Assembly: GCF_000517265.1 (NCBI RefSeq)
Contig: NZ_AYSJ01000012.1
Location: forward strand, 1-43,805
Reading direction: 5' to 3'
Length of the DNA stretch: 43,805 nt
Source: Photorhabdus khanii NC19
GTDB lineage: Bacteria; Pseudomonadota; Gammaproteobacteria; Enterobacterales; Enterobacteriaceae
The notes under the pieces are model-generated. The model was not told the DNA's origin. It made no database searches and saw only the letters and a list, made by a program, of their open reading frames with translations. This document shows positions 8,661 to 41,698 of the stretch, in pieces (the first letter of the stretch is position 1; the number at the start of each line of letters is the position of its first letter). The translations under genes and the position numbers were made by a program.

Positions 8661-10142
8661 TTATGGTCCTAAAATATCTAATTCATCCCAAATCTTGTTG
8701 ACGTGGGTACGCACTTCTTCACTCATCACAATAGGGCGTCCCCATTCCCTCTGCGTTTCCCCCGGCCATTTATTCGTTGCATCCATTCCCATCTTTGACC
8801 CTAATCCTGAGACTGGTGATGCAAAATCGAGATAATCGATTGGTGTATTCTCCATTAATACTGTATCTCTTGCCGGATCCATTCGTGTAGTTATTGCCCA
8901 AATGACATCGTTCCAGTCTCTGGCATTAATATCATCATCACAAACAATAACAAATTTTGTATACATAAATTGCCGCAGATACGACCAAACTCCCATCATG
9001 ACTCGCTTGGCATGACCAGCGTACTGTTTCTTCATGGTCACAACGGCAAGACGATAGGAACAGCCTTCCGGCGGCAGATAAAAATCGACAATTTCAGGAA
9101 ACTGCTTTTGTAAAATCGGTACTAACACCTCATTCAATGCAACCCCTAGCACAGCAGGTTCATCTGGCGGGCGACCAGTATAAGTCGAATGATAAATAGC
9201 ATCATGGCGCTGAGTAATATGCGTCACAGTGAACACTGGGAACATATCGATTTCATTATAATAGCCTGTATGGTCACCATATGGCCCTTCTGGAGCTAAT
9301 TCGCCAGGCTCAATATATCCTTCTAATATGATCTCAGCACTTGCTGGTACTTCCAGGTTATTTGAAAGACATTTCACAACTTCTGTTTTATATCCTCTTA
9401 ATAACCCAGCAAATGCATATTCCGATAACGTGTCAGGAACTGGCGTCACAGCACCTAATATTGTTGCGGGATCGGCACCTAACGCAACAGCTACCGGGAA
9501 GCGTTTTCCTGGATGTGCCTGACACCATTCCTGAAAATCAAGGGCTCCACCACGATGAGATAACCAGCGCATAATGAGTTTATTTTTACCCAGCACTTGT
9601 TGGCGATAAATACCAAGATTTTGCCGCTCTTTATTCGGACCACGGGTTACTGTCAGCCCCCAAGTAATCAGCGGAGCAGCGTCTTCTGGCCAACAGTGCA
9701 TTATAGGAAGACGGGTTAAATCTACATCATCACCAACCCAAACTTGTTCCTGACAAGGCGCACTATTAAGCCGTTTGGTCGGCATATTAAGAACTTGCTT
9801 AAATTTCGGCAGCTTCTCCACCAAGTCTCGAAAACCTTTCGGAGGATCAGGCTCTTTCAAAAAAGCCAGTAACTTACCGACATCGTGCAAAGCCTTAACA
9901 TCTTTCTGCCCCATCCCCATAGCAACACGCTCAGTGGTACCAAACAAATTACACAATACAGGCATTGAATAACCTTTGGGATTTTCAAACAGTAAGGCAG
10001 GACCACCAGCGCGAAGGGTACGATCCGCAATTTCAGTCATCTCTAAATAAGGATCAACTTCGAGACTGATACGTTTCAATTCACCTTTCTGTTCCAACAA
10101 GGTCAGAAAATCTCTTAAGTCACGGTATTTCATACTATCCAT
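8661..10142 (-). CDS. ubiD: 3-octaprenyl-4-hydroxybenzoate decarboxylase UbiD
   Basis: UbiD decarboxylates the prenylated 4-hydroxybenzoate ring in ubiquinone synthesis, using prenylated FMN made by UbiX (not in this window). The 493-aa protein is collinear with E. coli UbiD (497 aa) from the start [20 protein letters not shown]. Conserved blocks include [40 protein letters not shown] and [11 protein letters not shown]. It is followed closely by fre, as in E. coli. The quinone pathway is well represented here, with ubiB, ubiJ and ubiE nearby. Confidence 0.96.
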
Positions 10143-10277
10143 TCATGCCGGTTTTTAAGGGGGAAGACATTATAAGCTATCCCACTCAGCTTTTTTATGT
10201 TTTTATCGCAAGACTACAAATTAAACCAATAACTTACTAAAAAGCAATGGGTTTAATTCAACCTTGCGACCTCAAAG

Positions 10278-11003
10278 TCAAATACAACGCAATGGGACCC
10301 AATTAGCTAATACTTTGGTTTCAAATTGCTCAGGGAAAAATTTATTGTGTTGGAATATTTTAAACCCTTCATTCTTACCACTAAAATAACGCAGTTCTTC
10401 GCCATCAATATGCAAACCACTACCTTCACGTAATGCAATCACTATCTCTTCTGGGTTCATTGCACAGAATTCAGCCAAACGTTCATCACGAGTCTCCCCC
10501 ATATGACCACTAATACGGCTATCAATGTAATGAGGGTTAATTTGTATGGGGAACAATCCGATGGACGGCATGACAACAGTGTTACGAACAGGCATATCAT
10601 TAGTAGTACGAATACTTGGCGTCGCCACATTGCAACCAGCACTCCAACCAATATACGGAATATTACGTTCACGCACTGCGCGCTGGATGGGTACAATCAA
10701 ACCGTTTTCATGTAATAGCTGATTCAGTAACCAAGTATTTCCTCCACTAACCAAAATACATTCTGCATTCTCAATCGCCTGAACAGGAGAGTTAAAACGT
10801 TCAATATTTGTTACCCTTATTCCTAAAGCTTCTCCAAGCTCTTTAGCTCGCTGCTCATGATCACCTTGAATAACCGCGTATGCAATCAACACCGCAGAGC
10901 AAATAGCGCGTTTCTCAATCATTACATCTAACCGCTCCTTGGCATAACTCAACCAATCCGGATTACCTGAAAGTTTGCCATTACTCAGCAGAAATACTTC
11001 CAT
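10278..11003 (-). CDS. pepE: Peptidase E-like (alpha-aspartyl dipeptidase) protein
   Basis: Family S51 peptidase E hydrolyses dipeptides with N-terminal aspartate in the cytoplasm. The chosen ATG at 11003 (241 aa, MEVFLLSNGKLSG) has AAGGA eight bases upstream and aligns with the PepE N-terminus; an upstream in-frame extension is unlikely. The catalytic triad is visible as Ser121 in GWSAG, Asp136 in TTNDMP and His158 in INPHY, matching Ser120/Asp135/His157 of Salmonella PepE. The gene sits between ubiD and rfaH, where E. coli has none. It may be a paralogue of the standard pepE, so the symbol is provisional. Confidence 0.85.
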   Translation of the reverse strand: MEVFLLSNGKLSGNPDWLSYAKERLDVMIEKRAICSAVLIAYAVIQGDHEQRAKELGEALGIRVTNIERFNSPVQAIENAECILVSGGNTWLLNQLLHENGLIVPIQRAVRERNIPYIGWSAGCNVATPSIRTTNDMPVRNTVVMPSIGLFPIQINPHYIDSRISGHMGETRDERLAEFCAMNPEEIVIALREGSGLHIDGEELRYFSGKNEGFKIFQHNKFFPEQFETKVLANWVPLRCI

Positions 11004-11226
11004 CTTTCTTTTCCTTATATTAATTGCAGACAGAATCACCAGCATTATATTGATCGCTTTACCTATGGCTTACCATGATATTACTCACAGCTTTTTTACT
11101 AAGAAACGCAGTATCTACTCATAACAATAAATATCTATCATCAAACAATTATCACTGAGATAATTCCTGTAATGCCCTTTCCTATTTTGCTATGCTTAAT
11201 AGTCATTGGATCAAGGTTAAATAAAC

Positions 11227-11715
11227 ATGGAAAACTGGTACCTCATCTACTGTAAGCGTGGGCAAATTTCACGAGCAATAGAAAATCTGGAACGACAGGA
11301 TGTTGCCTGCCTGACTCCTACCGCAAAAATTGAAAAAATAACTCGCGGTAAACGTACTGTGAATACAGAACCCCTTTTTCCTAATTACCTATTTGTTCAG
11401 TTTGACCCAGAAGTTATTCATACCACGACTATCCATTCAACACGTGGCGTTAGCCATTTTGTTCGTTTTGGTATACGCCCAGCTATCGTACCGGACGCTC
11501 TTATTAATGAAATCATGTCTGCAACAGAGCAAGAATATGTATCACCAGATACACCTGTGACCGGTGATACGGTATTAATTACTGAAGGGATATTTGAAGG
11601 ATTGCAGGCTATCTACAATGAGCCAGATGGAGAAACCCGCTCTATTCTATTACTGAATATTCTGAATAAACAATTACCTAAAGCGCTTGATAACAAACAG
11701 TTTGTGAAGCTTTAA
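11227..11715 (+). CDS. rfaH: Transcription antiterminator RfaH
   Basis: RfaH is a NusG paralogue recruited at ops sites in leader RNAs of long operons (LPS, capsule, toxins), where it suppresses pausing and couples translation. The 162-aa length equals that of E. coli RfaH. The NGN domain begins with NWYLIYCKRGQISRAIENL, and the shorter C-terminal domain (about 110-162) corresponds to the part that refolds from alpha-helical to KOW-like beta. It is divergent from the pepE-like gene and convergent with hemB across a shared terminator. Confidence 0.95.
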   Translation: MENWYLIYCKRGQISRAIENLERQDVACLTPTAKIEKITRGKRTVNTEPLFPNYLFVQFDPEVIHTTTIHSTRGVSHFVRFGIRPAIVPDALINEIMSATEQEYVSPDTPVTGDTVLITEGIFEGLQAIYNEPDGETRSILLLNILNKQLPKALDNKQFVKL

Positions 11716-11721
11716 TCAGAC

Positions 11722-11755
11722 AAAAAACGGGCAGAATTCACATTCACCCGTTTTT
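11722..11755. terminator. Bidirectional terminator between rfaH and hemB
   Basis: An A-run leading into ACGGG (ending 11731) pairs with CCCGT leading into a T-run (11747-11755). The stem is flanked by As on one side and Ts on the other, so it can terminate both rfaH (plus) and hemB (minus). Confidence 0.85.
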
Positions 11756-11764
11756 AATCAAATA

Positions 11765-12787
<1,023 letters not shown>

Positions 12788-14476: not shown

Positions 14477-16117
14477 TTACTTTGTTTTACTTAACTCACA
14501 CCAGCCAAACAGCCATGAGACGACACCCGCGCCCATAAACAACCAAGGAATATTGACTAAGCCAGACAACAAAAACAAACTCCCACAAAGAAACAATGTC
14601 GCACCAACACCGAGCAAATACTGCGACTGTCGCTGTTTTGTCTGCTGCCCTTTTAACTGATCTGATAGCTTCTCAATGTTGGCTTGCAAATGTTTATGCT
14701 GTTGAAGACTGTCATACACTAATTCAGGTAGTTCCGGCAACTTTTCTGCCCAATAAGGTGCTTTTTCTTTCAGCGCCCGAATAATAGCCGGCAATCCAAC
14801 CTGACTATGTAACCACTCCTCCAGAAAGGGTTTTGCTGTTTTCCACAAATCAAGCTGTGGATAGAGCTGTCGTCCTAACCCTTCTACATACAAAAGCGTT
14901 TTTTGCAGAAGCACTAACTGAGGCTGCACTGCCATATGAAAACGGCGGGCAGTATTAAATAGATTCAGAAGAACATGACCAAACGAAATTTCCGCCAGTG
15001 GCTTCTCAAATATTGGCTCACAAACTGTACGGATTGCAAATTCAAAGTCTTCGACATTAGTATCACTGGGAACCCAACCTGAATCCACATGAAGTTCAGC
15101 AACTTTCCGGTAATCACGATTAAAGAAAGCGATAAAATTTTCCGCCAGATAACGTTTATCATCTTTATTAAGCGAACCAACAATACCGTAATCAATACCA
15201 ATATAAAACGGATCTTCAGGATGCTCATAACTGATAAAGATATTTCCCGGATGCATATCCGCATGGAAAAAACTGTCACGGAAGACTTGAGTAAAAAAGA
15301 CCTGTACTCCCCGTTCAGCCAGCAATTTCATATTGGTATTCTGCGCTTCCAGTGCTTCAATATCAGAAACCGGAATACCATAAACTCGTTCCATCACCAA
15401 AACATTTTCACGGCAATAATCAGAATAAATTTCCGGTACATAAAGCATTGAGCTATTTTCGAAATTACGGCGAAGCTGAATTGCATTAGCGGCTTCACGC
15501 AGTAAATTCAGCTCATCAATCAACGTCTTTTCGTATTCCCGCACCACTTCACGAGGGCGTAAACGACGCCCATCAGGCAACAGCATCGGTACCCAATTAG
15601 CCAGGCGATACATTAACCGAATATCCGCTTTGATAACCGGCAGAATATCAGGGCGGATGACTTTGATAACAATTTCCTGACCGTTCTCTTTTAACCGGGC
15701 AGTATGTACCTGCGCAATTGAAGCAGAGGCCAAAGCTATAGGTTCAAAATCATCAAACCAAGTTTCCAGCGGCCCCCCTAAAGAAGCTTCAATATATTGA
15801 CGAGCCAAAGCACCGTCGAAAGAGGCAACCCGGTCTTGCAACAATGCCAGTTGATCAGCTATTGCCGGAGGAAAAAGATCACGCCGTGTTGAAAGCATCT
15901 GTCCAAATTTAATCCAGACAGGCCCTAACTCCTGTAAGGCAAGTCTCAGCCTCTCTCCAAGCGATTTATCTTTATGTCTATTCGGGATCCAAAACAACAA
16001 ATAACGTCCAAAACGAAGAGGCCAAGTCAAACGAATTCGAGGAATCAGCTCATCCAATCCGTAAGAAAGAAAAACCCGTATGATCAAATAAAGGCGCCTT
16101 AATTCACCTGGAGTCAT
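14477..16117 (-). CDS. ubiB: Ubiquinone biosynthesis protein kinase-like UbiB
   Basis: UbiB is an ABC1/ADCK-family atypical kinase-like ATPase needed for ubiquinone synthesis, associated with the inner membrane. The 546-aa length equals that of E. coli UbiB. The KxGQ signature appears in [17 protein letters not shown]. Further family marks are [11 protein letters not shown] and [10 protein letters not shown], the catalytic-loop segment. Two hydrophobic helices at the C-terminus (about 500-540) would anchor it. Its start overlaps the ubiJ end by 14 bp, so ubiE-ubiJ-ubiB are translationally linked, as in E. coli. Confidence 0.96.
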
Positions 16118-16754
16118 ATTTTTCCTCTAATACTGCCAATCGTTGTTCTATTTGACTGATATCTTTAGTCAACACGCTGACTTCTTCGCTGAAATAAGCC
16201 ACTTCAAGCGCATTTGGCACCAGTTTCCATTCTTCCGTTAATGTTTCCACCAGATAATTTTTCTGACATTCTATTGAGCCGGAAACAAACTGAAATCCCT
16301 TTTTAATGGCCTGGCTGATACCTTCAGCAGCGATATCCCCGAGATAAGGGGAAAGATAATGAGCCAAATCCCATTCAACCATATCCAACAAAGCAGACCA
16401 TTGCTGAACAACCTGCATATCCCCTTCAATAACCATTTCACCACTATTGAGCAACCTGGAAATTTGTTGTCGATCTCGTAGCTTAAGCAAAGCAGCAAAG
16501 TTAGTTTTAACGGTGCAATCGGCCGCTTCAGCCCATTGACTTAATACATCCACTTGTTTTTCACTGAATACTAATGTGAGTGGTGTATTCATTTCTTCCA
16601 GTTCAATCGACAAAACTTTGCCCACCAGCCGCATACGTGCAGGTCGTAATACTGGTTCGCGGTACAACAAGTGGTTCAACGATCTTTCCATCACTGCGGT
16701 TAAAACCGGCATAAGTGTGGAATTAATGGCTGTACTCAGTGATGGTTTTTCCAT
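16104..16754 (-). CDS. ubiJ: Ubiquinone biosynthesis accessory factor UbiJ
   Basis: UbiJ is an SCP2-like lipid-binding protein of the cytoplasmic ubiquinone-synthesis complex and works with UbiK. Family blocks include [41 protein letters not shown] and [14 protein letters not shown]. The start is uncertain: ATG at 16754 gives 216 aa, close to E. coli (201 aa), and lies just after the ubiE stop. A longer in-frame reading begins within ubiE, and a later Met (MPVLTA) would match the E. coli N-terminus more tightly. The C-terminal coiled coil is typical. Confidence 0.9.
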
Positions 16755-36208: not shown

Positions 36209-36447
36209 GGGATATTTCCAGTCCTAAAATACATCGCCTCTTTCTTACAAAATGAATACTCGGTTATTCCGTTTTATACTTCAATCAATAATATAGTCAT
36301 TCATTTTATCGATTGTAGTTAGATATTTTCAACAATAGAAAAACTAAGAACTCTATAAATATCTAGCTAAATTAAATCATAGATGAATATATTTTACGAT
36401 ATGTTATGATTCATTTTCAGACATGACTTAAGCCAACGAGAGACAAG

Positions 36448-38973
36448 ATGCAAACAAACGAAAGAAAAGTACTATGCACTATAGAAAAAGGATATTCCTA
36501 CGAAAGAGAAGATCAACTAGGGAAGCTCAGAGTGTATTTTGAGATTTTGAGTAATGGTGAAATTGTACCAATTAATAAAGAAAGTTTATTTTGTGAAACT
36601 GAACAGGTTTTCGTTACTTCAGGGTATAGCGAATTACGCGAAAAGTACAGCTCCTCACTTTTTGCAGCAACATGTGTTCCAACAAACTTTGAAAAAAAAG
36701 AAGGGAACTGCCAATATATCACCAGAGCAAACTTTTGCGAAGACATCAAAGGGCTTTTAGCCTGCCAAGTTTACGATCTTCCATTTCCTGATGTTAACGA
36801 AGCAGTTATTATTTTAACAGAAAAACCCTTAACAAAAACAATCTTAATCCAAGATAACAGCTATATCTATGGGCCTTTCGATTATGTTGATGAGATAGAT
36901 CCAGCAACAAACCAACATATTTTACATTTAAAACCCATAAGTACTCCATTAAATAAAATCCAGCAATTTCATATTGGAAAAATAGGCATCCAGAAATGTA
37001 TCGCATATTTATCACAAAATAATCATTCACATATGACTTTCTTATGTAATATAAAAAGAATATTTGAAAACATAGATGACACCATCGATTATATAACTAA
37101 TGATCAAATCATTTCAACCTATGGAAATAGAATTGCACAAAATTCTGAAATAAGAAGCTTCAACAAAGGAACAATAGCACAAATTCGTAAATGCTATACT
37201 TCCTCACAAGAATTCAGAACTTTCCCTGAAAGATTTAATAGGCTATTTCAAAATTTAGAAATGGCGGAAAATTGGGATAATACCAGGAAAGATTTAATGG
37301 ATAGTTTTCTTTCAATTGATAAAGGAAGAGAAATTTTAAAAAAATATATCGACGAGAATAAAGAAGAATATTTTCGGGAAGAGAAACAATCTTTTTTAAA
37401 GAAATTACAAGAAGATAAATTAAATCAGCAGCAAGCATTTAATGCATTAGTCAATAAAAAAGAGCAAGTAGAAGCTGATATCCGCAAAATGCTGCGAGCA
37501 AGAGAGCTATTTCAATTCAATGGTGGCCAGATATCAACAATCACTATTACGACAGAAGAAAAAAATAAGATTGAACAGAAACTATCTTCCCGACGTAAAG
37601 AATTAGATACTCTAACCGCAGAAGTCAAAGTCTTAGAAGAAAAACATAGTCGTTTTAAAAAAATCGAGGACTTAAAAAATGAAATAGATGATCTGGAACG
37701 TGAACGGGACAGATATAGAGACAGAAAAAGGCAGATGGAAGAGCAGGTTGAAGATGTTGCGAAAAAACTGAGAGAAAGTAATGAAGTATTAACCAGCCGG
37801 TTAGTTCAGCTTAAACCCGATGTGGATGCTTTATGTGGTTTAAAGCCAAAAGCAGTATTTAGCTCATTGGATTATAATGTCATAACAAGGAAAATTTCAG
37901 CAACTGAAAGTGATGAAGATACCCGTGAAAATCTCATCAATAGCGTCCTTGATGCTTTAAATAATCGAGGCCGTAAAACAGATTATTATACCGTTGCAAA
38001 TATTCTGACAACAATAGCACAATGTCAGTTTACATTATTTAGCGGATTACCGGGAACAGGGAAAACATCGCTGGCAAAAATACTCGCAGCTAGCCTGGGG
38101 CTACAAAATCGCTTATTAAATATTCCTGTTGCGCGAGGTTGGACTTCATCAAGAGATGTATTAGGTTTCTATAATGCCTTATCCCAATCCTTTATACCTT
38201 CCGCTACTGGGTTGTTTGATTTAATTAGACACCTTCATTACGAAATGAAAGAGAAAATTGAATCAGCCGCTCCGGCTATTGTTTTACTTGATGAGTTTAA
38301 CCTTTCACAACCGGAACACTACTTCAGCCCATTCCTTGAAATGGCCGATCCTGAGTCTAAGCGAATAATTTTAACCGGTAATCCAGAGGAACAACATTTT
38401 CAGGTACCCACCTATTTACGTTTTTTAGGCACGATCAATCAAGACGAATCTGTTCAATCCCTTACTCCCAGATTGTTAGACAGGGCTGCTATAATCAATT
38501 TTGATGATTTTGAACAAGACTATGATTTGAGTGTAGTAAAATCAGATACCCATAAAGATTTAAACATTTCCCCAATTACCGGAAATAAATTCATTGATAT
38601 TTTCCTTCCAAGATCTTTAGAAATGACACCAGATATTGAGCGAATTCTGCAATTAATAATCGAAACTTTACGTGATGATAACCCAGAATTCGGAACTCCC
38701 GTTATTGTTTCATATCGAAAAATAAAAGCTATTCGCTCATACCATAATGTGGCTGGCCCAATGATGTATATCGAAAGTAAATACAAAGCATTAGATTACG
38801 CTGTAGCTCAACATATATTACCTCTCTTAAACGGCTATGGACAGAATTTTGGTAATCGATTAAATACCTTGTTAGATAATTTACCTGACGAAATGGAACG
38901 CTCACATAAACTGCTGAGAAGAATTATTAGCACCGGAAACCAAAATATGTTTTGTTATGGGGCCAATATATGA
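36448..38973 (+). CDS. McrB-like AAA+ NTPase with coiled coil
   Basis: This 841-aa protein is predicted to be the NTP-driven motor of a defence system. Residues 1-290 form an unrecognised N-terminal region with a YIYGPFDYV stretch (139-147). A long charged coiled coil spans about 300-460. The AAA+ domain has Walker A GLPGTGKTS (533-541), Walker B IVLLDEFNLS (611-620) and the McrB-like sensor GTINQDESVQSLTPRLLDRA (661-680), with Arg675 and Arg679 as arginine-finger candidates. Its stop overlaps the next start as ATGA. The gene is visibly more AT-rich than the flanking core. It could use GTP, as McrB does, but that is not proven. Confidence 0.85.
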   Translation: MQTNERKVLCTIEKGYSYEREDQLGKLRVYFEILSNGEIVPINKESLFCETEQVFVTSGYSELREKYSSSLFAATCVPTNFEKKEGNCQYITRANFCEDIKGLLACQVYDLPFPDVNEAVIILTEKPLTKTILIQDNSYIYGPFDYVDEIDPATNQHILHLKPISTPLNKIQQFHIGKIGIQKCIAYLSQNNHSHMTFLCNIKRIFENIDDTIDYITNDQIISTYGNRIAQNSEIRSFNKGTIAQIRKCYTSSQEFRTFPERFNRLFQNLEMAENWDNTRKDLMDSFLSIDKGREILKKYIDENKEEYFREEKQSFLKKLQEDKLNQQQAFNALVNKKEQVEADIRKMLRARELFQFNGGQISTITITTEEKNKIEQKLSSRRKELDTLTAEVKVLEEKHSRFKKIEDLKNEIDDLERERDRYRDRKRQMEEQVEDVAKKLRESNEVLTSRLVQLKPDVDALCGLKPKAVFSSLDYNVITRKISATESDEDTRENLINSVLDALNNRGRKTDYYTVANILTTIAQCQFTLFSGLPGTGKTSLAKILAASLGLQNRLLNIPVARGWTSSRDVLGFYNALSQSFIPSATGLFDLIRHLHYEMKEKIESAAPAIVLLDEFNLSQPEHYFSPFLEMADPESKRIILTGNPEEQHFQVPTYLRFLGTINQDESVQSLTPRLLDRAAIINFDDFEQDYDLSVVKSDTHKDLNISPITGNKFIDIFLPRSLEMTPDIERILQLIIETLRDDNPEFGTPVIVSYRKIKAIRSYHNVAGPMMYIESKYKALDYAVAQHILPLLNGYGQNFGNRLNTLLDNLPDEMERSHKLLRRIISTGNQNMFCYGANI

Positions 38974-40790
38974 TCCGTTGGGAAATGTTTATCAATTCAA
39001 TTTCTGATGGAGAAGTTGTTGATCTCAGAATCAACAACAAATATAAAATTACAGAATTAGATCATATTCTGTTTCAAGTTTCTTTATCGGAGGATGATAT
39101 TGAGAAAAATGGCATTCCTATAATAATCATAGGAGATACATCTCTGGAATTAATTTTTTCTCACTATGAAAATAGTGAAAAAATATATACATCAATAGAA
39201 CCACTAAATTCACATCGTTCAAGATATTTTTATAATTTTTTTGGGGAAAGCCAAGTTTCTCTATATATAGGAACCCAATATGCGCCTATATATAGTGTTA
39301 CCTTTGATATTTTGGCAAGACGAGAAAATGCCACCCTAGCAAACATTATGCTAGAATATTTAACCGAAAACTTAGAGGATATTGTTTCCATTTGTTTTTC
39401 AAAAAGCAGAAAAACTGCATCATTTGATGAAGATAATATTTTTAACTTCAATAAATTAGAAATAATAAAAGAAACAGTTAATTATTTGACGCAACATTTG
39501 CCCTTATTTATTATAGAACATAGGCACGCTTTAGAACCAAAACTCATTCTATCAAAACAAGGGCAGCCAACCGGCCCAGATTCAATTATGTGGGCATTAT
39601 ACAATCTTGACCAATTATCTCCTGCAAATAATGAAGACGCCAACATATTCTATAATAACAGGGGATATTCTTTCAATGAACTTCCTAAAGAAACACTAAA
39701 AGAGAATACAGATATTTACGAAAACAAAGTCGTCCACGCTTTTCTAAAACAAGCTAATGTCTTCCTGATGATGTTTAAAGAATCACTGATTTCTCCTAAA
39801 GATAAAATCCAATCTTTAGAAACAAATGAATTTATCCAATTTAACCATACAATGTCAAAATATGCAGATTTAGCCTTAATAAACAAAGCCAAAAAAATTG
39901 AAAATTTAATTAGCACTTTAGAAAAAACAAGATTATTGTTTAATAAAAAAATACCCTCAACAGCGTCAATAGGTATCGTTCCTAAAGTCACACCTTATGT
40001 TGCTAAACATAATCATTACAGAAAAACCTTTTATCTGATTGAGCAATATCACCATGCGCCAACACCTTCTTTCATTGGCAAAGAACTTTTTTCAGGATTA
40101 AAGAACCTCTCAATAGTTTATGAAACTACCGTATTGATTTTATTACATGAGATTATTCAAGAAAGTTATAAAGTTCAGCTTATTGAACAGAATTATAGAC
40201 TTCATTCGGAAGAATTACCTTTCGGTGGCGTAAAAATAGAAAGACCAACAAATGAAATTAATAATTATTTCTTATTTAAAAATGAAAACTACGATATTGA
40301 ATTATTTTATGAAGCAAAAATTTTCCCTTTAAGCACCCATAGTAAAAAAGGAGATCTTGTTAATACGAGTAATAACATTGATTCTAATAAATACGGAAAA
40401 CACCATTTTTGCCCTGATTTTATCATGAAAGTAAACTCAAAAAGTTGGAAAAACCCACTAATTATAATACTTGATGCAAAATATAAAGATGCAAAAACAA
40501 TAAAAGAACATGATATTGATGAATTAACAAGAAAATATTTACTTAATATACATCAGGTTAATGAAAATATGGCATTAGGAATGTCTCCGGTAAAAATGCT
40601 TTTTATTCTATTCGCACACAATTCTGAAGAAACCGTTGTTAGATCAGTTGCTCCACAGCATTGTATCAATGGTCAGTTTCCAGTTTTACCACAATCAATT
40701 GCTATTTCAGTTAAACCTAATGAAAAGAATATATTAATCGAACACTTTATTGCACTTAAAAAAATTATGGATAAAAAGAATAAGTCCTAA
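38970..40790 (+). CDS. McrC-like DUF2357/PD-(D/E)XK nuclease
   Basis: The 606-aa partner protein has the DUF2357 N-terminal region followed by a C-terminal PD-(D/E)XK-type nuclease domain. Candidate active-site residues are Glu385 in LSIVYETTVLI, Asp483 in HHFCPDFIMKV, and Asp502 and Lys504 in IIILDAKYK, the PD-(x)n-DAK pattern. This architecture is found in McrC-like proteins paired with McrB-like NTPases. The ATG at 38970 overlaps the upstream stop in ATGA, so translation is coupled; an in-frame Met six codons earlier is less likely. The partner and order agree with a type IV restriction or related system. Confidence 0.82.
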   Translation: MIRWEMFINSISDGEVVDLRINNKYKITELDHILFQVSLSEDDIEKNGIPIIIIGDTSLELIFSHYENSEKIYTSIEPLNSHRSRYFYNFFGESQVSLYIGTQYAPIYSVTFDILARRENATLANIMLEYLTENLEDIVSICFSKSRKTASFDEDNIFNFNKLEIIKETVNYLTQHLPLFIIEHRHALEPKLILSKQGQPTGPDSIMWALYNLDQLSPANNEDANIFYNNRGYSFNELPKETLKENTDIYENKVVHAFLKQANVFLMMFKESLISPKDKIQSLETNEFIQFNHTMSKYADLALINKAKKIENLISTLEKTRLLFNKKIPSTASIGIVPKVTPYVAKHNHYRKTFYLIEQYHHAPTPSFIGKELFSGLKNLSIVYETTVLILLHEIIQESYKVQLIEQNYRLHSEELPFGGVKIERPTNEINNYFLFKNENYDIELFYEAKIFPLSTHSKKGDLVNTSNNIDSNKYGKHHFCPDFIMKVNSKSWKNPLIIILDAKYKDAKTIKEHDIDELTRKYLLNIHQVNENMALGMSPVKMLFILFAHNSEETVVRSVAPQHCINGQFPVLPQSIAISVKPNEKNILIEHFIALKKIMDKKNKS

Positions 40791-41365
40791 TTTCGTTAAA
40801 ATAATGGATTTAATAAAATAATTACAATGATATAACAGACATTAATAATATAAAAATTTTATTTTAATTAAATCCTTATATTCTTGTTACTATGATCTTA
40901 TGTTTACAGATAATGAAGTATTCCACGCTGATTAGGAAAGCATCCAGGAAACAAATATTTATTTTTTGGATTAAAATTTAATTTTAATCCCTCAACAAGA
41001 AAACATTATAAATTGAAATTATTCTCAATCAAAACAATATAAGATAATTATAAGAACAATATAAAAACAGTAAAAGTGTTATTATATAATAAAAAAACAG
41101 ATATCTCACCGGATTATATTTCAAAGAAAAAACAGCAACTATATTAAATATCTCAAAAAAATAAAAACAAAAAAACCATATATTCTTGATGTTTATCATG
41201 ATAACTCTGTCACTCCAAAAACACATATAATATTTATTTGCCCTGGTTGTTTTAAGATGTTATTTATTTTCACCTACTAAGATTTATTTTTATTTATAAA
41301 TCTTGGACGATTTGTGTAGTTGAATATCTAAATGTTATCAATACTTTTCTTAAGAGGAAATTATT
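40791..41365. other. AT-rich spacer with palindromes before the 110-aa gene
   Basis: A 575-bp very AT-rich stretch follows the nuclease gene. It contains GGATTAAAA/TTTTAATCC arms (40968-40990, 5-base loop) and AAGATTTAT/ATAAATCTT arms (41279-41304, 8-base loop), both perfect 9-bp inverted repeats. The second lies about 60 bp before the ATG of the next gene and could be an operator or leader hairpin. No gene is supported here. Confidence 0.55.
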
Positions 41366-41698
41366 ATGGAATATCAAAAGATTGGGCAAATGAGCCTTAA
41401 AAACTCAGGCGGATTTGTTGCTAGAATCCAATTTAGTTATATTGATGCCAACGGTGAAAAATTTCTAAGTAAACAAAGTGATGATATTACTCTTGGAGTA
41501 ACAAAGACTATTGATCCAGGCGATCTTGGGGTTCCTGATGGAGCGACAGTTTATATGCATGTGTTTGTAGTATGGGGGCGTGATAATGAAGCTCATCAAG
41601 TTTTTTTATACGAAAAAGGAAATCAAGCAATTGCCAACTATATGATCAGTGGTACAACATTAAATAATGATCTTGGCTTGATCGATGTTATACAGTAA
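41366..41698 (+). CDS. Small beta-sandwich protein resembling cytolysin domain 4
   Basis: This 110-aa protein has no signal peptide or membrane segment. Its pattern resembles the C-terminal domain of cholesterol-dependent cytolysins: NSGGFVARIQFSY (13-25) parallels SGAYVAxxxxxW, LYEKGNQ (81-87) parallels VYEKTD, and ISGTTLNNDL (94-103) parallels ISIWGTTLYP. The tryptophan-rich undecapeptide and the rest of a cytolysin are absent. This is a pattern match from memory, not a search, and function is unknown. It has AGAGGA before its ATG and a terminator behind it, so it is an independent gene. Confidence 0.65.
   Translation: MEYQKIGQMSLKNSGGFVARIQFSYIDANGEKFLSKQSDDITLGVTKTIDPGDLGVPDGATVYMHVFVVWGRDNEAHQVFLYEKGNQAIANYMISGTTLNNDLGLIDVIQ

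Follow-up and report, generated by a model that had tools for sequence, protein, structure and literature searches.

A two-gene McrBC-like operon of the NxD branch in Photorhabdus khanii NC19, most likely a Type I-C CoCoNuT

The window analysed here, a 43,805-nucleotide stretch of the Photorhabdus khanii NC19 genome (contig NZ_AYSJ01000012.1, positions 1 to 43,805), contains two overlapping genes with intact reading frames that code for an 841-amino-acid (aa) McrB-like protein and a 606-aa McrC-like protein. Judging from these sequences, we consider it highly probable that the pair is a complete two-gene McrBC system of the NxD branch, most likely a Type I-C CoCoNuT composed of CnuB and CnuC. 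The class itself has been published as a prediction; the pair adds a further member to it and does not represent a novel type of system. An earlier note on this DNA had described a coupled operon for a nucleoside triphosphatase (NTPase) with Walker A and Walker B motifs, a McrB-like sensor and a long coiled coil, followed by a nuclease with a PD...DAK pattern, with AT-rich flanks and eptB adjoining. This observation is real and was read correctly in outline: open reading frame (ORF) calls, motifs, both flanking gaps, the position of eptB and the residue numbers Lys539, Asp502 and Lys504 all agree with our results (Table 1). Its interpretation is supported in part.

The gene pair and its two proteins

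The ATG of the second gene overlaps the stop codon of the first within an ATGA tetranucleotide (38970-38973), and the two genes likely form one operon, present as a single copy in the 5.23-Mb genome. A scan of the operon for repeats and promoters returned 34 promoter-like sites against 27.1 expected, and nothing usable. Relatives came from a genome scan that confirmed 138 loci, the 80 best of which were kept; the tandem was examined in 31 loci (28 of the 80 and three from viral contigs), and the alignments comprised 19 CnuB rows and 18 CnuC rows.

Searched against Pfam, the 841-aa protein gave generic AAA domains only. A profile built from 19 relatives matched E. coli McrB in the PDB (6hz4, E 3.6e-4; also 6ut6) over 144 positions (535-678), and in hhalign comparisons the family aligned with four canonical NxxD McrB proteins at 97.6% (E 4.1e-12) and with ten NxD CnuB stand-ins at 100% (E 1.9e-50, residues 488-800). 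The McrB-like NTPase proposed previously is therefore supported by profile matches, and the check suggested with it, whether a profile search would place the protein outside the McrB clade, yielded a McrB-type AAA+ domain alignable with both NxxD and NxD McrB proteins. The sensor reads TIN664-Q-D666-E and lacks one residue relative to its K-12 McrB counterpart. NxD was read in 40 of 43 relatives, the other three being unscored in that reading (two were later read as NxD and the third, L020, is a broken copy); the NxD assignments of loci L017, L002 and L042 were taken from this 43-row motif reading. The stretch ahead of the GTPase domain matched SMC/Rad50-type coiled coils (over residues 269-461) as well as coiled coils in the PDB, and by a crude score 42-residue windows within 313-452 contained 38-69% E/K/R/D/Q and 0-2 Pro or Gly each. 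A long coiled coil (residues ~300-460) is thus predicted to be fused to the NxD GTPase. Ahead of it, residues 1-215 form two segments conserved family-wide, with P114 and G142 invariant in the 19 rows. PDC-M26A, a component of a PADLOC phage-defence candidate, matched the window CnuB (8.2e-25) and all 19 relatives scanned.

The evidence for the second protein comes mainly from its family. At E ≤0.01, PDDEXK_7 was detected in 12 of the 18 aligned relatives (best 8.5e-5) and DUF2357 in 11 (best 1.7e-9), and all 18 rows share P482, D483, D502 and K504. The hhalign comparison of the CnuC family with five NxD CnuC stand-ins gave 82.9% (E 9e-6) over 405 columns. An adjacent ORF longer than 300 aa was present in 29 of the 31 loci, the two without one being a broken locus (L016) and a contig end (L094); 27 of these 29 partners carried the PD...DxK pattern, the misses being the truncated L020 and the outlier L036, and 26 had the YEN-type motif, a sign of DUF2357. 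A PDB search with the single 606-aa sequence gave no matches and the corresponding profile search one chance-level match (E 2.4); the DUF2357 Pfam model matched nothing in the P. khanii genome or in 14 control genomes. Taken together, the second protein is identified by sequence comparison as a divergent McrC with a DUF2357-type region and an intact PD-(D/E)xK core, in line with the DUF2357/PD-(D/E)xK partner named previously.

For CnuB, the ratio of nonsynonymous to synonymous substitution rates (dN/dS) against two sister Photorhabdus species was 0.07 and 0.09; the corresponding CnuC values were 0.15 and 0.16. Both genes are under purifying selection. Because the partner ORF adjoins in 29 of 31 loci, with the nuclease pattern in 27 of 29, and because dN/dS is low, the pairing of the genes is not due to chance.

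Position within the McrBC and CoCoNuT classes

A key question is to which of the published types the pair belongs. As described in the portions of Bell et al. (2024, PMC11090510) drawn on throughout this text, the NxD branch is defined by a deletion that turns NxxD into NxD, usually followed by E or D, and contains the CoCoNuTs. We compared GTPase domains in a first tree of 48 of the 49 rows extracted (L039 left out) and a second tree of 40 rows (L039 and eight more long branches, outliers and near-duplicates left out). In both trees NxxD and NxD proteins were separated with support of 100/100, and the window CnuB fell on the NxD side, apart from canonical McrB; together with the motif and the hhalign results, this bears out the kinship with McrBC and CoCoNuT systems named in the earlier note. 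The window protein belongs to a seven-row clade (100/100 with 48 rows, 100/99 with 40) comprising two Photorhabdus, a Klebsiella plasmid, Aliivibrio, Oceanospirillum, an Oceanospirillales bacterium and Colwellia, which in the 40-row tree is joined with a 16-row sister group in one clade (100/100). The reference loci, whose I-A, I-B, II and III labels were assigned in this analysis from gene make-up, stand on other branches of the 48-row tree: two near-identical I-A-like rows, the I-B-like rows (99/97), three II/III-like rows (99/98) and a fourth, L110, a long branch apart from these three. The window CnuB therefore lies inside NxD and groups with no I-A, I-B, II or III stand-in, the order of the deep NxD branches being unresolved in the tree.

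Type I-C CoCoNuTs consist of CnuB and CnuC only; extra domains, cold-shock-like and often YTH-like, precede the coiled coil of CnuB, and CnuC begins with an Ig-like beta-sandwich (published proteins: CnuB GFD85286.1, CnuC MBV0932851.1; PMC11090510). The window pair has the same two-gene make-up, with a McrB and a McrC homologue only, and its CnuB carries an N-terminal region ahead of the coiled coil, in the position seen in Type I-C. In its CnuC, ~110 residues precede the DUF2357 match, where other CnuC proteins carry the Ig-like domain.

The remaining types fit less well. Type I-A is rejected, as the window CnuB lacks the helical insert that separates Walker B from NxD in that type: the Walker B-to-N distance is 51 residues in the window CnuB and 125 in the two near-identical I-A-like pairs. 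Types II and III are rejected because neither the superfamily 1 helicase CnuH nor the effector CnuE stands beside the pair, which is bordered by eptB upstream and, downstream, by a 110-aa gene followed by frmA. Type I-B, which has a separate coiled-coil protein, CnuA (PMC11090510), is disfavoured by its own tree branch and by the lack of a separate coiled-coil gene in the window. A canonical Type IV McrBC with the ADAM domain is rejected, since Pfam scans found no DUF3578 and the signature is NxD, not NxxD. By elimination and architecture, Type I-C is left among the published types.

Several results weigh against the overall reading of the pair. The pair was set against published Type I-C by description only, and the reference labels are our own. 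In the PDB profile search ten sequences outrank McrB, with Pch2/TRIP13, ClpC, ClpB and RFC among them, although the majority align along short segments around the P-loop, and PADLOC models other than PDC-M26A also match the relatives weakly (mad8 in 10 of 19; LmuB; JetC). The 606-aa protein on its own stays below the Pfam cut-offs (21.2 against 22.1 bits for PDDEXK_7, 15.5 against 23.3 for DUF2357), the K-12-type McrC profile matches the CnuC family weakly and over the nuclease only (18%), and PDC-M26B has no match to the window CnuC and matches one of 18 partners, at 0.006. Finally, the CnuB N-terminus had no detectable similarity to the N-termini of I-B-like proteins (ten rows) and no sequence match to cold-shock proteins (five of six loci used). 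The published cold-shock and YTH-like assignments rested on AlphaFold2 models (PMC11090510), and for this reason the negative sequence result at the N-terminus says little.

The same N-terminus had been the ground for suggesting a distinct subtype. This suggestion is not borne out by the present results: the pair fits the published NxD class, most likely Type I-C, and its N-terminus gave no match to the I-B-like and cold-shock sequences. We regard it as unlikely that the seven-row group makes up a separate subtype, in which a hitherto undescribed sensor at the N-terminus would respond to a different signal from those suggested for the known CoCoNuT types.

The locus, its distribution and mobility

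The two genes, their motifs and the flanking gaps are listed in Table 1.

Table 1 Features of the CnuB/CnuC operon and its flanks in the window
Feature	Coordinates	Strand	Basis or remark
CnuB/McrB-like protein, 841 aa	36448..38973	+	ORF (ATG start), family alignment, profile matches
CnuB-like layout: two N-terminal segments (~1-100, ~100-215), helical segment, coiled coil (~300-460), NxD-type AAA+ GTPase (~490-841)			borders of N-terminal segments drawn by eye on the alignment
Coiled-coil stretch, ~residues 300-460	37345..37827	+	borders approximate
Walker A GLPGTGKT (residues 533-540)	38044..38067	+	
Walker B LLDEFN (residues 613-618)	38284..38301	+	
NxD signature N664-Q-D666-E667, shortened form of McrB NxxD	38437..38448	+	definition in PMC11090510
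CnuC/McrC-like protein, 606 aa	38970..40790	+	ATGA overlap with CnuB
CnuC-like layout: N-terminal segment (~1-110), DUF2357-type region (108-297), C-terminal PD-(D/E)xK nuclease (~383-606)			DUF2357 a weak Pfam match
PD-(D/E)xK core P482-D483 to D502-A-K504	40413..40481	+	
AT-rich gap, 28% GC, between eptB and operon	36209..36447	.	
AT-rich gap, 21% GC, downstream of operon	40791..41365	.	

The neighbouring genes encode MFS and TauE transporters, EptB (PF08019 and PF00884, directly upstream), the 110-aa protein and a zinc alcohol dehydrogenase (frmA). The 110-aa protein (41366-41698) has no Pfam match; of 11 Photorhabdus loci, 9 have a relative of it in the stretch upstream of frmA, the exceptions being L118 and L121. 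In the scan of 27 other window ORFs (all of at least 200 aa except one overlapping frame, together with the 110-aa ORF) against 5027 PADLOC models, two models matched, once each: RTasRmuC (DRT-associated RmuC, 1.9e-114) and mad2 (1.6e-20), both of which we read as matches to household proteins. The term "defence island" used previously is therefore not upheld for the window, the part of the 103-kb contig that was scanned: here the pair stands alone, next to transporters, EptB, the 110-aa protein and the dehydrogenase.

The interval between the TauE gene and the 110-aa gene contains remnants in two other Photorhabdus genomes, of CnuC in G296 (39%, E 5e-18; L124 4386-4844) and of CnuB in G297 (53%, E 2e-10; L126 6931-7059). 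Both are diverged and occupy the same site as the intact window operon, and because of them it would appear that the system has long been acquired and lost at this site.

Gammaproteobacteria, Klebsiella plasmids and two likely P4-like satellites carry relatives; among named genomes, the closest copies are those of Photorhabdus thracensis (98%) and P. tasmaniensis (97%). CnuB was matched in 11 of 295 genomes of the same family, over most of its length only in P. khanii itself and one other. Among 12 Photorhabdus genomes, three have a 97-100% copy, one a sister-group copy (30%) and one a short fragment only. At the DNA level, 3 of 5426 E. coli genomes gave a match, a short one to eptB only, and a search of 50,697 phage records with CnuB returned one match of 14%. 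Broken copies in several ORFs were seen in Arsenophonus nasoniae and Salinivibrio costicola (L016 8001-11335, L020 4302-8049), and the L003 copy (10001-12519) is annotated as two coding sequences.

Plasmid matches to CnuB amounted to 298 records. In 27 of them the match spans 80% or more of the query; the 25 listed of these show 49-60% identity and come from Klebsiella, with the exception of one Enterobacter record. The remaining 271, covering less than 80%, include some shortened copies and many other AAA proteins. In both plasmid records opened (IncFIB), a tyrosine recombinase gene adjoins the pair. On one Klebsiella plasmid (L002), a 563-aa ORF without a Pfam match (14711-16402) lies downstream of the pair, where the window has the 110-aa ORF. 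Type II/III CoCoNuT-like operons, so labelled from gene make-up, also occur on Klebsiella, Rhodoferax, Rhizobium and Synechocystis plasmids (L104, L110, L111 and L103).

Neighbours of the relatives were scanned as 119 of 151 listed ORFs, 22 of the 32 dropped belonging to the outlier loci L036, L037 and L041. Seven of the 119 matched integrase and three primase families, and PADLOC matches were sparse (41 models; among the 25 listed, one ORF each). In the sister group, integrases stand beside the copies in L034, L095, L040 and L027 and P4-type primases beside L034 and L095, and candidate ORFs beside L022, L024 and L026 had no integrase or primase match. Some copies are therefore probably carried by P4-like satellites, elements whose psu-int interval is described as a defence hotspot in E. 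coli (PMC9122126). In L034 and L095 the copy sits between the integrase and the primase; L038 has a similar layout, with a large protein that matched only a PHROG of unknown function.

Proposed mode of action, alternatives and relation to known systems

By analogy with E. coli McrB (PMC11090510), the AAA+ GTPase domains of CnuB would come together in a ring dependent on nucleoside triphosphate (NTP), and the N-terminal segments and coiled coil of CnuB may detect invading nucleic acid or a signal of infection. CnuC would, as in McrBC, dock on this ring through its DUF2357 stalk and stimulate NTP hydrolysis, and its PD-(D/E)xK domain would cut the nucleic acid translocated by the ring. The intact McrC-type core speaks for cleavage of DNA; for sensing of RNA or of a translation-linked signal speaks the general case made by Bell et al., who predicted RNA/translation targeting for all CoCoNuTs (PMC11090510). 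A defence role of the branch is made more likely by a Type II CoCoNuT, another type than the window pair, which was among the systems reported to give P. aeruginosa PAO1 resistance to at least one phage (PMC12735699).

How does this reading fare against its alternatives? The pair could be a member of a different NxD group (CoCoPALM, Hsp70-fused or methyltransferase-linked McrBC) in which a coiled coil arose in parallel, and it would then still be an NTP-driven nuclease. The comparison by description, the N-terminal domains of Type I-C that were not seen in the pair and the unresolved NxD branching order leave room for this, as does the Ig-like domain, which also occurs in non-CoCoNuT McrC proteins of the NxD clade (PMC11090510); each listed Type II methyltransferase model, moreover, matched one of the 119 neighbour ORFs of relatives. 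However, no methyltransferase, signal-peptidase or Hsp70 family was found among the eight annotated window proteins, CnuB has by eye no N-terminal transmembrane or FtsB-like start, and two genes with a region before the coiled coil are the make-up of Type I-C (PMC11090510); we regard membership in another group as unlikely. Little prospect at all is given to a decaying or household locus without a defence role. The remnants in the two other Photorhabdus genomes do indicate that the system can be lost, and no other clear defence genes were found in the window, but both frames are intact, all catalytic motifs are present, dN/dS is well below 1, and the patchy distribution with plasmid and likely satellite carriage fits an accessory defence gene.

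A rather different possibility, to which we attach some limited probability, concerns the outcome of the reaction: CnuC may act as an abortive-infection effector that cuts cellular RNA or DNA once CnuB has sensed damage to translation, so that the cell is killed or halted and the invader is not restricted. The RNA/translation targeting predicted for all CoCoNuTs would agree with this, as would the lack of a known DNA-specificity domain (DUF3578, EVE) in Pfam scans of the pair and its relatives. A search of 12 related genomes for an EVE domain likewise gave none. On the other side, the nuclease is of the McrC PD-(D/E)xK type, which cuts DNA in McrBC, and no HEPN or other RNase family is found among the eight annotated window proteins.

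Returning to the Type I-C assignment, the kind is known and experimentally almost untouched. At the time of its description, none of the NxD-type McrB GTPases had yet been characterised (PMC11090510). DUF2357 is mentioned in five papers; three of the four terms McrB-like, coiled-coil, anti-phage and DUF2357 occur together only in the two versions of Bell et al. and one preprint, and our literature searches found no mention of PDC-M26 in the four papers listed, nor of PDC-M26A together with PADLOC. The pair is not surprising in kind and is useful as a compact test system: small, intact and with an intact nuclease core, it offers a practical way of asking whether a coiled-coil McrBC cuts DNA or RNA and what triggers it. 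The sister-group copies in likely P4-like satellites would suggest a use in competition between phages.

Among named systems, the window pair shares most with the Type I-C CoCoNuT, itself predicted only (PMC11090510): McrB and McrC homologues alone, an NxD GTPase, a CnuB coiled coil with a region N-terminal to it, and a CnuC with an N-terminal segment, a DUF2357-type region and PD-(D/E)xK; the cold-shock, YTH-like and Ig-like domains of Type I-C are not seen in it by sequence. With E. coli K-12 McrBC (EcoKMcrBC) it has in common a McrB-family AAA+ domain, a separately encoded PD-(D/E)xK partner and overlapping or adjacent genes, whereas it differs in having NxD instead of NxxD, a long coiled coil and no ADAM (DUF3578) that could be found, and its CnuC, at 606 aa compared with 348 aa, is the longer protein and shows weak similarity that is confined to the nuclease. 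The I-A-like pair on Klebsiella plasmids (L102, L112; our own label) likewise consists of two genes for an NxD GTPase and a McrC-type nuclease, but has the long insert between Walker B and NxD, C-terminal zinc-ribbon-like cysteine clusters (by eye) and a separate branch. The I-B-like Bacillota pairs (L105, L113, L043, L052 and L053; again our label) share the NxD GTPase and, in L105 and L113, an adjoining partner annotated as DUF2357 or nuclease; they differ in a shorter CnuB (664-683 aa), a DEMN Walker B, a branch of their own and N-termini that cannot be aligned with the window CnuB. Type IV CoCoNuT (Druantia I and II) likewise includes a long coiled coil in its CnuB homologue; a preprint (PMC12458937) describes it with an inactivated CnuB and a YprA helicase, whereas in the window pair the motifs are intact and the operon lacks a helicase gene. 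The PADLOC candidate PDC-M26, whose A component matches and whose B component does not, represents a related family that is not clearly the same.

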